64,000 bases of DNA, taken from NCBI RefSeq assembly GCF_014696065.1, contig NZ_JACJPL010000031.1, forward strand, positions 868,001-932,000. Reading direction: 5' to 3'. Positions within the stretch are counted from its first letter, which is position 1. Each line of letters opens with the position of its first letter. Shown one piece after another: positions 58,086 to 61,772 of the stretch. The stretch is from Leptolyngbya sp. FACHB-261 (GTDB taxonomy: Bacteria > Cyanobacteriota > Cyanobacteriia > FACHB-261). The notes beneath the pieces are model-generated. The model did not search any database and was not told the origin of the DNA. It worked only from the letters and a program-made list of their open reading frames with translations. The position numbers and the translations under genes were made by a program.

Positions 58086-60233
58086 ATGTGTCTTTTTTGT
58101 AGCTTACGTAACCTGAGTGACGCTCTACCTGAAACAACTCCAAGAACAATTTCCAGGGCAGCTCTTGCCAATGCGGCTCCTTCAGCGGGTGCTGCCGGGG
58201 TCGGCGATTCACTTTACCCAGGCTTTGGTAACGGTGGTTATGATGTTCAAAATTACACCGTTGATCTAAACGTCTCTGACGTTGACACCAGCACTCTGAC
58301 TGGCATCACTACGATTGAAGCCGAGGCGACTCAGGGTCTCACCAGCTTCAATTTGGACCTCATTGGCTTCTCGGTTGACAGCATCACGGTCAATGGCAAA
58401 CCTGCAACCTATAGCCGTGATGGGCAGGAGCTGACCATTACGCCAGCAGAGACGCTTGCTGAAGGCGAAGCGTTCACAGTAAAGGTGAACTATAACGGCT
58501 CGCCGGAGCAGATCACCTCAGTGGCAATTCCAGTGCTGACTGGCTGGGTGATCTTTGATGGGGGCAGCTTTGTTCTCAGTGAACCAGATGGCGCGGCGAA
58601 TTATTATCCAGTCAACGATCACCCGCTGGACAAAGCTTCTTATACATTCCGCGTTACAGTTCCAGAACCCTTTGAGGTTGCCGCGAATGGGGTGCTGGAG
58701 CAAACCATCGACAATGGCAATACGACTACCTATATTTTTGAAGCTCGCGATCCGATGGCGAGCTACCTAACGACAGTTAATATCAGTCAATTTGATCTCG
58801 ATACCGATGGAACGGCGAACGGAATTCCGATTCGCAATTATTTCGCTGAGGGCATTGCGCCAGACCTACTCAAGCCGTTTGATCTTCAGCCGGAGATGCT
58901 CACTTATTTTAGTGAGCTTTTTGGTCCTTACCCGTTTGATGTCTATGGCTCTGTGGTTATGAACACAGACACAGGCGCAGCCCTGGAGACGCAAACTCTG
59001 TCGATTTTCGGCACGGGTCAATTGGGCCGGAACCCAGCTTTTCTAGGTGGGTTTGCTTCGAGTACTGAAGAGGTGGTTGCCCATGAGCTAGCTCACCAGT
59101 GGTTTGGCAACAGCGTGAGTTTGGCCGATTGGAGCGACATCTGGCTGAATGAAAGCTTTGCTACCTACTCGCAAGGGTTGTGGATTGAGAACACTCAAGG
59201 CCGCGATGCTCTAGATGAGTGGGTAGTCAACAAGTACAACACAGTCGTAGATGCCAAGGCGGAATTAGTTGCGCCCGGTTTGCCACCAGCAGATGATTTG
59301 TTTAACTCGGGTGTGTATGACTGGGGGGCATTGGCCTTACATGCGCTACGGCTAGAAGTCGGCGATACCGATTTCTTCGATACCTTGCAGACTTATTACG
59401 AACGCTATCGTAATGGCAATGTCACGAGTGAGGACTTCTTTGGCGTAGCTGAAGAAGTGAGTGGGCAAGAACTGAGTGCCTTCTTTCAAGACTGGATTTA
59501 CAGCGGTGAGATTCCACCGATTGCCCAGTTGGGATTATCCTCTGATCCAACTGGTGACCAAACCCTAACAGGTACGAACGCCGCTGAAGTGATTTTTGGC
59601 CGCGATGGTGACGATACCATTTACGGGAAGGGTGGCATCAATGTTCTGATTGGTGGTGCTGGGGATGACACTCTCTACGGGGGTTCCAGCAAAGACACGA
59701 TCACGGCTGGAGATGGCAACGACACGGTTTATGGCAGAGGCGGCACCAATACGCTCAACGGTGGTAATGGCGATGACCTGATTTACGGTGGCTCCAGCGC
59801 CGATACGCTTACGGCAGGGGCTGGCAACGACACGGTTTATGGGGGTGGCGGTAACGATACAGTCAACGGTGGCGCGGGCGATGACCTCATCTATGGCGGT
59901 TCCAACGCCGATACGATCACAGCGGGGGCTGGCAATGACACGATCTACGGTAGAGGTGGCGCGGATTCGATCAATAGTGGCGCTGGTTTAGATACCATCT
60001 GGCTTGGTCCTGGTATGGCCACTGTGGTGCTATCGCTGGGTGACGGCTTCGATACCATCAATAACTTCAAACTGGGCTCAACTAAGTTTCAGGTTACTAG
60101 CCTGGATACGTTGTCCTTTACGGATAGTACTGATGGTGCCCAGATTTTCCAAGGGGATGATCTGCTCGCGGTGGTGACGAAGAAAGCAGCCAGTCTTTTG
60201 AGTGACAACACAAGTCAAATCTTTGTGGTGTAA
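58086..60233 (+). CDS. M1-family metallopeptidase fused to RTX calcium-binding repeats
   Basis: The 715-residue protein has an M1 aminopeptidase module (about 50-475). This includes a beta-rich N-terminal domain, the exopeptidase-region GAALETQTL, the zinc motif HELAHQW (about 336-342) and the third ligand Glu in WLNESFATY (about 357-365). From about 500 to 640 it has nonapeptide repeats of GGxGxDxUx type ([32 protein letters not shown]), which bind calcium. There is no N-terminal signal peptide. RTX proteins of this kind are usually exported by a type I system through C-terminal signals, so it is probably secreted. No hlyB/hlyD-type genes are adjacent. Confidence 0.92.
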
Positions 60234-60263
60234 CTAACGTCGCCTAGCTTAAGTTCGAGTCTA

Positions 60264-60292
60264 AGCAGGGACATATAGTTTATGTCCCTGCT
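60264..60292 (+). terminator. Terminator after the RTX metallopeptidase gene
   Basis: AGCAGGGACATA (60264-60275) pairs exactly with TATGTCCCTGCT (60281-60292) around a 5-nt loop, 30 nt past the stop codon. A proper T run is lacking. Confidence 0.6.
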
Positions 60293-60401
60293 ATAGCAAG
60301 CTAATTTGAGGTTGCTCTCGCTAGTCCAAGCCCTATCTTCTTGGGCATGAGGTCATGTCTGAGCTGACTTGTGGCGGCAGTTGAGCAGGACAAACTAACC
60401 G

Positions 60402-60623
60402 TCAGTGATTGAGCTGAACGACGGTTTTATTCAAGATGCTGGCATCCTCTCGCCATTCGCGAATGGTCTCTCGGTTTTGCCGTTGGGTCACGGCCTGTTC
60501 TGCTTGCCAAAAGCAAATTCGACTGAGAGCAGCGACAACTGCCGAGAGACTATAGCGCTGCATTAAGACCCTCAAAATATTCAAATCGCTGTCGCTAAAA
60601 GTGGGTGCAGGCGATTGAGTCAT
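60402..60623 (-). CDS. Small hypothetical protein behind a structured leader
   Basis: From ATG 60623 the protein is 73 residues and soluble (MTQSPAPTFSDSDLNILRVL; YSLSAVVAALSRICFWQAEQ). A GTG two codons earlier is possible. It is mostly helical, with no known motif. Its 5' region on the minus strand (60624-60830) carries several stable hairpins, the last being followed by ATTTTT just before the start codon. The gene may therefore be controlled by attenuation. Confidence 0.55.
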   Translation of the reverse strand: MTQSPAPTFSDSDLNILRVLMQRYSLSAVVAALSRICFWQAEQAVTQRQNRETIREWREDASILNKTVVQLNH

Positions 60624-60830
60624 AACCAAAAATCCTCAATAGGTTTTGAGGGGCAACCGGTGAAGATTGCCCCTTCGCTCCCTCTCTAGGTTCCCGCCTG
60701 ACCCGCTTGGAATAGGTTGACCCCAACGGAGTGCTAAACTCCGTCGTAGCCTTTGGGCTGGCAAACACCAACCTAGAGGTCAGTCGCCGAGGGTTGCGGT
60801 TATCAACCCTCGGCGGCGCTTTGAGAACTG
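60624..60830 (-). ncRNA. Candidate structured RNA or leader with terminator-like hairpin
   Basis: Read on the minus strand, this region contains the following stems in order: a 12-bp stem (60804-60815 with 60785-60796); AACCTAGAG/CTCTAGGTT (60770-60778 with 60684-60692), enclosing ACGGAGT/ACTCCGT (60726-60732 with 60738-60744); GGGGCAA/TTGCCCC (60650-60656 with 60667-60673); and CTCAA/TTGAG (60634-60638 with 60646-60650) followed by ATTTTT. The last two stems share a base at 60650, so they could compete. I do not recognise a known RNA family. It could be an attenuator for the 73-residue gene or an independent RNA. Confidence 0.45.
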
Positions 60831-61014
60831 GACTGAACGAAAGATAAGTCAAAGTAAGGCGTTTGGCAAGCCCAGTTTGAGACTAATTTCAGAGGCTTCT
60901 GATCCAGGCGCAGAACTCTGTGCCAGCAATGCCCTGTGTCAGTTGAGTAAAGAGTTTGGGCAACCACAAGGGATTGCCCCTACCGATGCTCATGCGCTTA
61001 ATTTGCGTCATTCC
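60831..61014. other. Short intergenic stretch
   Basis: There is no gene I can support between the structured region and the 130-residue hypothetical gene. It would carry the promoter of the structured transcript on the minus strand. Confidence 0.4.
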
Positions 61015-61407
61015 CTAGGCGGTCTGAGGCTTATTGTTGGATTGGCTTGCTGACTCCCGGATGCGTTTCTGGCTGCTCCTACGCACGCGCTCGCTCTTGC
61101 GCACGCCACCGGCCATTTCGTACTGAACGCTGTCCTTGCCGTAGCGGTAGGCAATGCCAATCAACAGTTTGTCAGCCATATCACCCAGGCTTTTCTCTAG
61201 CTCAGCGATCTCGGTCGTAGAAGAATCAATGACAGCCAGAGCAGTGTTATAAGCATCAATTCTGAGCCGTAATCTCTCGATAGTGCTAGTAAAGTTGCTC
61301 AACTTGACCGAATTGTCAAACTCCAGTTGTGGATCAACGGCTTTTAGGCCAGAGGCGCGTAGTTCAGCTTTTTCTAAAACTCTCGAAGTGCGCTTTCTGC
61401 GAGCCAT
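61015..61407 (-). CDS. Cyanobacterial hypothetical protein with basic ends
   Basis: The 130-residue protein has a basic N-terminus (MARRKRTSRVLEKAELRASG), a central coiled-coil helix (about 38-85; TIERLRLRIDAYNTALAVID and TEIAELEKSLGDMADKLLIG), the block AYRYGKDSVQYEMAGGVRKS (about 86-105) and a basic, low-complexity tail. I recall similar proteins (YGxxSxEYEMAGGxRKS) in other cyanobacteria, with no assigned function. The pattern suggests nucleic-acid or ribosome contact, but this is speculation. Confidence 0.65.
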   Translation of the reverse strand: MARRKRTSRVLEKAELRASGLKAVDPQLEFDNSVKLSNFTSTIERLRLRIDAYNTALAVIDSSTTEIAELEKSLGDMADKLLIGIAYRYGKDSVQYEMAGGVRKSERVRRSSQKRIRESASQSNNKPQTA

Positions 61408-61606: not shown

Positions 61607-61669
61607 TTGTTGACGTTACTCCCGGACTTGTTGACGTTACTTCCACAAGTCCGGGAGTAACGTCAACAA
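61607..61669. repeat. Perfect 25-bp inverted repeat made of the 21-bp unit
   Basis: The arm 61607-61631 is the exact reverse complement of 61645-61669, around a 13-nt loop that itself contains a partial inverted copy (TGACGTTACTTCC). It would form a very stable hairpin or cruciform. Confidence 0.85.
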
Positions 61670-61772
61670 CTTCTGTCCCTACAACAACAAGTCCGGGAGT
61701 AACGTCAACAAGTCCGGAAGTAACGACAGCAAGTCCGGGAGTAACGACAGCAAGTCTGGTTGTTGTGATCAC
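61647..61772 (+). repeat. Direct repeats of a 21-bp unit
   Basis: The unit AAGTCCGGGAGTAACGTCAAC occurs at 61647-61667 and 61689-61709. Contiguous variants follow at 61710-61730 (AAGTCCGGAAGTAACGACAGC), 61731-61751 and a diverged copy at 61752-61772. A further diverged copy is at 63629-63649 (CAGTCTGGAGGTAACGATAGC), beyond the next gene. There are no unique spacers of CRISPR type. Confidence 0.85.

Follow-up and report, generated by a model that had tools for sequence, protein, structure and literature searches.

Introduction

The closest described relatives in concept of the RNA element that we report here are 5′ UTR RNAs of cyanobacteria: the Downstream-peptide RNA (RF01704) and the glnA RNA (RF01739), both of which are nitrogen-linked riboswitch candidates. 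According to PMC2864571, the Downstream-peptide RNA precedes reading frames of 17-100 residues that belong to no known family, and it is the nearest concept to our element, which is likewise located in front of uncharacterised small proteins. The element differs from both of these RNAs in its architecture, i.e. four hairpins that are closed by a helix, P0, with different conserved junctions, and in its setting, as it precedes several gene families and occurs in about 70 copies in one genome.

Two broader groups of leaders also invite comparison. With translational riboswitches, the element shares an oriented, promoter-proximal folded domain, conserved junction nucleotides and, in part of its family, an alternative pairing at the Shine-Dalgarno (SD) site; however, its genes encode uncharacterised small proteins, which therefore offer no metabolic clue to a ligand, and both the switching and the ligand are putative. 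With attenuators that end in an intrinsic terminator, it shares competing hairpins upstream of a gene, but the element has no conserved U run, and the last hairpin at our locus is built on the SD.

The locus lies in a stretch of 64,000 nucleotides from Leptolyngbya sp. FACHB-261, which we refer to as “the window”. The original prediction had recognised no known class at this place, and our comparisons agree: the whole window, compared with Rfam at gathering scores, contains only a tRNA; positions 60200-61020, compared at E<=5, yield five matches, all far below the gathering scores; and 20 loci that carry the element, compared at E<=0.5, have no match at the element, with neither RF01704 nor RF01739 among the Rfam matches there. 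In the literature that was searched, to which subscription papers mostly did not belong, we have found no description of the element.

Results

Layout of the leader-gene unit in the window

The unit is located at 60402-60869 on the minus strand, where a leader of about 210 nt is followed by a gene of 73 residues. At its 5′ end, a sigma-70-like promoter (TTGCCA, 17 nt, TATCTT; 60841-60869) occupies a position that is kept in the paralogues. The promoter is followed by strand A (60820-60840), the 5′ strand that is the expected P0 partner of the strand 3′ of hairpin P4, and whose pairing is weak in the window copy; by hairpin P1 (60785-60815), with 12 bp between 60815-60804 and 60796-60785; by the junction CUGACC (60778-60783); by hairpin P2 (60750-60779), in which 60779-60768 pair with 60761-60750; by the junction GGCUA (60747-60751); by hairpin P3 (60727-60743), with the sequence CGGAGU-UUAGC-ACUCCG; and by hairpin P5 (60649-60674), formed by AGGGGCAAUC and GGUUGCCCCU (60674-60665 with 60658-60649). 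Both junctions are conserved across copies; P1 is supported by its sequence and by covariation, and P2, P3 and P5 by covariation.

The last hairpin, CCUCAA/UUGAGG (60634-60651), is restricted to the five closest copies, among which it is nearly invariant, and holds the SD GAGG (60637-60634), which is located 10 nt upstream of the ATG. The hairpin is followed by AUUUUU, GGUU and the ATG at 60623; the 73-codon frame (60402-60623), which is multicopy in the genome and encodes a predicted three-helix protein, ends at 60402. All of the stems that had been named in the original prediction are present in the sequence of the minus strand. The overlap that it described between the last hairpin and the preceding stem exists as well, but comprises three bases (60651-60649) instead of one, and the ATTTTT that it placed directly before the ATG is present, but lies four bases upstream of it.

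The folding energy of the minus strand over 241 nt is -97.9 kcal/mol, below that of the shuffled sequences (-78.9 +/- 4.9 kcal/mol; z -3.9, with 0 of 200 as low). The complement, i.e. the plus strand, folds just as stably (z -3.8), and stability alone thus has no power to choose the strand. The strand is chosen by conservation: the unit that recurs comprises the promoter, the leader and the frame, and its promoter-like site lies on the minus strand.

Copies and distribution of the unit

A stretch of 321 bases from the locus has eight matching places in its own genome, corresponding to seven copies (one is split into two pieces) that are 74-100% identical; their similarity begins at the promoter, covers the unit and ceases where the gene ends. 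Among 59 genomes (own included), only two others match this stretch, through short and weak similarities (best E 7e-4), and patterns of the peptide and of the DNA have no match in 84,980 named genomes or viral contigs.

Searches by structure reach much further. The covariance model R1 is derived from nine leaders that belong to paralogues of the locus. It finds 69 copies in the own genome at E<=0.00264, four further matches (E 0.09-0.82) having been dropped, and is matched in 55 of the 388 genomes of the class at E<=0.01 (own included), with 1 to 21 copies in each of 16 chosen genomes. A second model, R2, was trained on 69 copies from other genomes, i.e. nine loci returned by the R1 search of the class and 60 chosen from its match list; it finds 74 copies in the own genome at E<=0.01, and 108 of the 388 genomes at E<=0.001 (own included), from 53 of 160 genera.

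Sigma-70-like sites are enriched 5′ of the element at a fixed distance across the family: they precede 37 of the 69 own copies (4.1 expected from shuffles), with most of the -10 elements starting 26-34 nt before P1, and 34 of 68 copies in other genomes (3.6 expected), with most at 54-66 nt. This placement of a promoter-like site 5′ of the element identifies the minus strand of the window as the RNA strand.

Covariation of the hairpins and conservation of the junctions

Of the alignments of the leader, A6 and A7 were fitted to the structure of the model; A2, A3 and A8 were not. In the two model-fitted alignments, 83-89% of the cells of P1-P3 are paired, with 340-362 two-sided changes, and for three of five measures no shuffle out of 500 reaches the observed value in either alignment. 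The alignment of 78 matches (69 own, 9 from other genomes) has 88.6% of its cells paired and two-sided changes at 19 of 20 pairs, with a covariation of 0.567 (0.232 when shuffled, at most 0.131 when slid); the corresponding values for the 69 matches from other genomes are 83.1%, 20 of 20 pairs and 0.601 (0.209 when shuffled, at most 0.108 when slid). The compensatory changes that the original prediction had proposed to look for in P1 are found as strong covariation, both in the own genome and in other genomes.

The unfitted MAFFT alignments point in the same direction. Among the nine paralogous leaders, 17 of the 49 predicted pairs stay paired through two-sided changes, and P2 is paired in 93.1% of cells, with a covariation of 0.243 (shuffled 0.160; 6 of 500 as high). 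Among 28 leaders from other genera, P1 and P4 stand out, and 12 of 22 pairs have two-sided changes, P4 being supported in these genera; for A8, 32 loci were extracted, and L151, L190, L157 and L209 were left out before alignment. P5 is paired in 93.2% of cells, three of its pairs have two-sided changes, and its covariation is reached by none of 500 shuffles. Of the junctions, the CUNACY-type motif occurs in all of the 69 own copies and in 66 of the 69 from other genomes.

A long-range helix of 9 bp (60684-60692/60770-60778), which had been proposed for the same region and whose complementary strands enclose P3, has not withstood this comparison: in the nine paralogous leaders, 72.5% of its cells are paired and its covariation is at the level of the shuffles (0.123, shuffled 0.112; 184 of 500 as high). 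We have rejected this helix, which is also mutually exclusive with P2, a hairpin that covaries.

The element is thus a conserved structured RNA leader, a conclusion that we hold with high confidence: like a riboswitch, it has a conserved folded domain upstream of genes, and its helices covary. The structured, regulatory-type leader that had been expected upstream of the small gene is borne out by the covariation among its relatives.

Genes that follow the leader

In the own genome, the leader is followed by a small gene in 68 of the 69 copies, belonging to five families: 43 copies precede one family with two branches, ten a second family, also with two branches, nine the window's family, and five a fourth; of the remaining two copies, one precedes a gene that contains a domain of the family found in other genomes, and one has no small gene. 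In other genomes, another small-protein family of roughly 65-120 residues follows the leader in at least 52 of the 69 copies; among the 17 loci that have no match to the family are truncated contigs, divergent members and a small number of other genes. This protein family and the RNA go together across 353 genomes: 92 have both, nine the RNA only, 41 the protein only, and 211 neither. At two places in G000 C15 (438198-439176 and 445587-446577), the leader is followed by a gene of the commonest own family and then by a gene of the family typical elsewhere, which shows that the two families share a unit. The name Asr1405/Asl0597, which was considered for the family of the other genera and looked up in PMC4390870, PMC5862535 and PMC2821919, has been dropped, as it lacks support from NCBIfam or Pfam.

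The protein of 73 residues has 12 matches in the own genome, two of them partial, and its three helices are predicted from the single sequence with a mean pLDDT of 89. None of the tested members of the downstream proteins, the 73-residue protein included, matches Pfam or NCBIfam above a curated score; no plasmid or phage record matches the 73-residue protein, no solved relative is found by sequence, and none is significant by fold (best E 1.6). Distant relatives of this protein are present in 20 of 388 cyanobacterial genomes (own included), and beside those that were checked there is a single R1 match (E 2).

Other arrangements occur at individual loci. At L207 (G114), the leader precedes a frame of 327 residues, named by eye as DNA methyltransferase-like, instead of a small gene, and at L087/L200 a frame of 266 residues follows it. 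At L023 and L024, a short frame (MPVYASK.. and MRPVFVAK.., respectively) is located 5′ of the small gene, and its stop overlaps the ATG of that gene as ATGA; translational coupling of the two frames is possible.

The closing helix P0 and a possible pairing at the start site

The two strands of helix P0 lie on the 5′ side of P1 and on the 3′ side of P4. In 28 loci from other genera (gapped, A8), the true strand pairs are better than swapped partners, with a mean percentile of 0.907 and a sum that none of 2000 permutations reaches; P0 is absent or weak in four of these loci (L159, L165, L170 and L174). In the own genome P0 is weaker, with a mean percentile of 0.62 over the 69 copies; among the copies of the 73-residue type, the pairing of strand A has a percentile of 1.0 in L011 and of 0.28-0.98 in the others. 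Before this, P0 had received only weak support in a test without gaps, with 54.8% paired and a covariation of 0.289 that 12 of 500 shuffles equalled or exceeded; a still earlier test gave a similarly weak result, and a comparison of duplex energies was not decisive. The weakness of P0 in the own genome and in these four loci counts against the proposed switch, which in the window copy is no more than putative.

In many copies from other genomes, the strand 3′ of P4 has an alternative partner, namely the start region with the SD: over 26 of these loci, the mean percentile of this pairing is 0.69, with 0 of 2000 permutations as high. The predicted accessibility of the SD changes little when strand A is removed, and does so in the opposite direction in the own-labelled set: in other genomes it is 0.226 with strand A and 0.189 without it (9 up and 3 down, of 56 loci), while in the own-labelled set of 46, which includes six loci from other genomes, it is 0.253 with strand A and 0.292 without it (3 up and 5 down). 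These values speak against a simple switch that operates throughout the family.

A strand of P3 is also complementary to the start region in one group, over 7-12 contiguous pairs, with 9-12 bp to the SD region. Overall, this complementarity has a mean percentile of 0.58 in 60 copies from other genomes and of 0.47 in the 69 own copies; by these percentiles we have rejected an anti-SD role of the P3 strand as a general property, and have kept it for the one group. By eye, P3 of L089, L157, L159, L164 and L174 looks complementary to the stretch from the SD to the ATG over most of its length, in two adjoining helices, which exceeds the single runs counted above. The start codons of L160 and L169 were set by hand for the P3:SD, neighbour-gene and alternative-pairing analyses; the automatic choice of the start codon is wrong for some own loci (e.g. 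L098, L104, L106, L142, L147 and L149). The alternative pairing of the P4-3′ strand, together with the complementarity of P3 in one group, suggests that the element may control the start of translation.

Discussion

We consider it likely that the locus is the 5′ mRNA leader of the 73-residue protein and a copy of a widespread, uncatalogued family of cyanobacterial cis-regulatory RNAs, which would act on translation initiation; that the element regulates translation as a cis-regulatory RNA is a claim in which we have moderate confidence. Dozens of dispersed units keep one order of parts: a promoter-like site at a fixed distance, P1-P2-P3 with their conserved junctions, a further hairpin adjacent to the SD, and a small gene. 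P0 would close P1-P4 into one folded domain, whose state may be set by a bound ligand, protein or RNA; depending on this state, the P4-3′ strand would either return to its P0 partner or pair downstream, at or next to the SD site, which would give the element control over translation initiation. The SD of the window copy would itself be held in the last, small hairpin, three bases of which are also claimed by P5. More tentatively, the element may form a new riboswitch-like class that has expanded to about 70 copies in one genome, and through which one signal acts on entire paralogous families of unknown small proteins, with one strand choosing between closure of the domain and covering of the ribosome-binding site.

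Other explanations have been weighed against this regulatory reading. The leader could be a constitutive 5′ element without a switch, i.e. an mRNA stabiliser, a processing site or a protein-binding tag for small mRNAs, an account that would suit the strong conservation of the fold and the junctions and the lack of a general effect of strand A on the predicted accessibility of the SD; we regard it as rather unlikely, since the P4-3′ strand matches two different partners in a locus-specific manner, and P3 is complementary to the start region in one group. The original prediction took the locus for an attenuator, and a transcription attenuator or transcriptional riboswitch, with the last hairpin and its U run as an intrinsic terminator, would account for the one terminator-like match (60651-60634, then ATTTTT); this reading is improbable, as such matches are at the level of chance (one found, 0.8 expected), three of the five closest copies (L018, L019 and L020) have a truncated or interrupted U run but keep the SD and its spacing, and the hairpin, which itself holds the SD, is missing from other leaders (L021-L024), so that the G+C-rich hairpin with a conserved U run of an intrinsic terminator is not what we find.

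The dozens of dispersed copies, and the differing genes that flank them, would also be expected of a repeat that acts at the level of DNA, such as a mobile cassette or a recombination site whose hairpins function as single-stranded DNA. However, the own copies have no ends in common, their similarity stopping anywhere between the interior of the gene and more than 800 bases beyond it, which, together with the differing neighbours, argues for dispersed units rather than one mobile element; moreover, the orientation of promoter and gene is fixed, and divergent copies keep the structure rather than the sequence, leaving this the most improbable of the explanations considered. Autoregulation, in which the downstream protein would bind its own leader, is suggested by the small, predicted helical protein directly downstream, but is very unlikely: within one genome the leader is located upstream of five protein families, including the one that predominates elsewhere, and a single cognate protein therefore cannot be the common ligand, while the ligands of individual groups could differ.

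If the element is, as we propose, a cis-regulatory RNA, its regulon would be unusually large for an RNA, with about 70 copies in a single genome and members in more than a quarter of the cyanobacterial genomes sampled; whatever ligand or partner the leader has would then be a single experimental handle on several unannotated small-protein families. The covarying helices and the two competing pairings, like the model itself, are open to direct testing.

Sequences adjoining the leader-gene units

Three further features have been observed next to the units. In the window, a tandem array of 5.3 copies of the 21-base unit ACAAGTCCGGGAGTAACGACA is located at 61645-61756, and sequence that resembles it adjoins other copies of the leader-gene unit (L003, L018 and L020). 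Downstream of one unit, L090 2339-3463 contains at least 16 direct repeats that resemble CRISPR-DR5, with scores just below the Rfam cut-off. Lastly, a long palindrome, AGCAGGGACATA..TATGTCCCTGCT (60262-60293), lies between the ends of the plus-strand gene (at 60233) and of the 73-residue gene, and is probably a two-way terminator.
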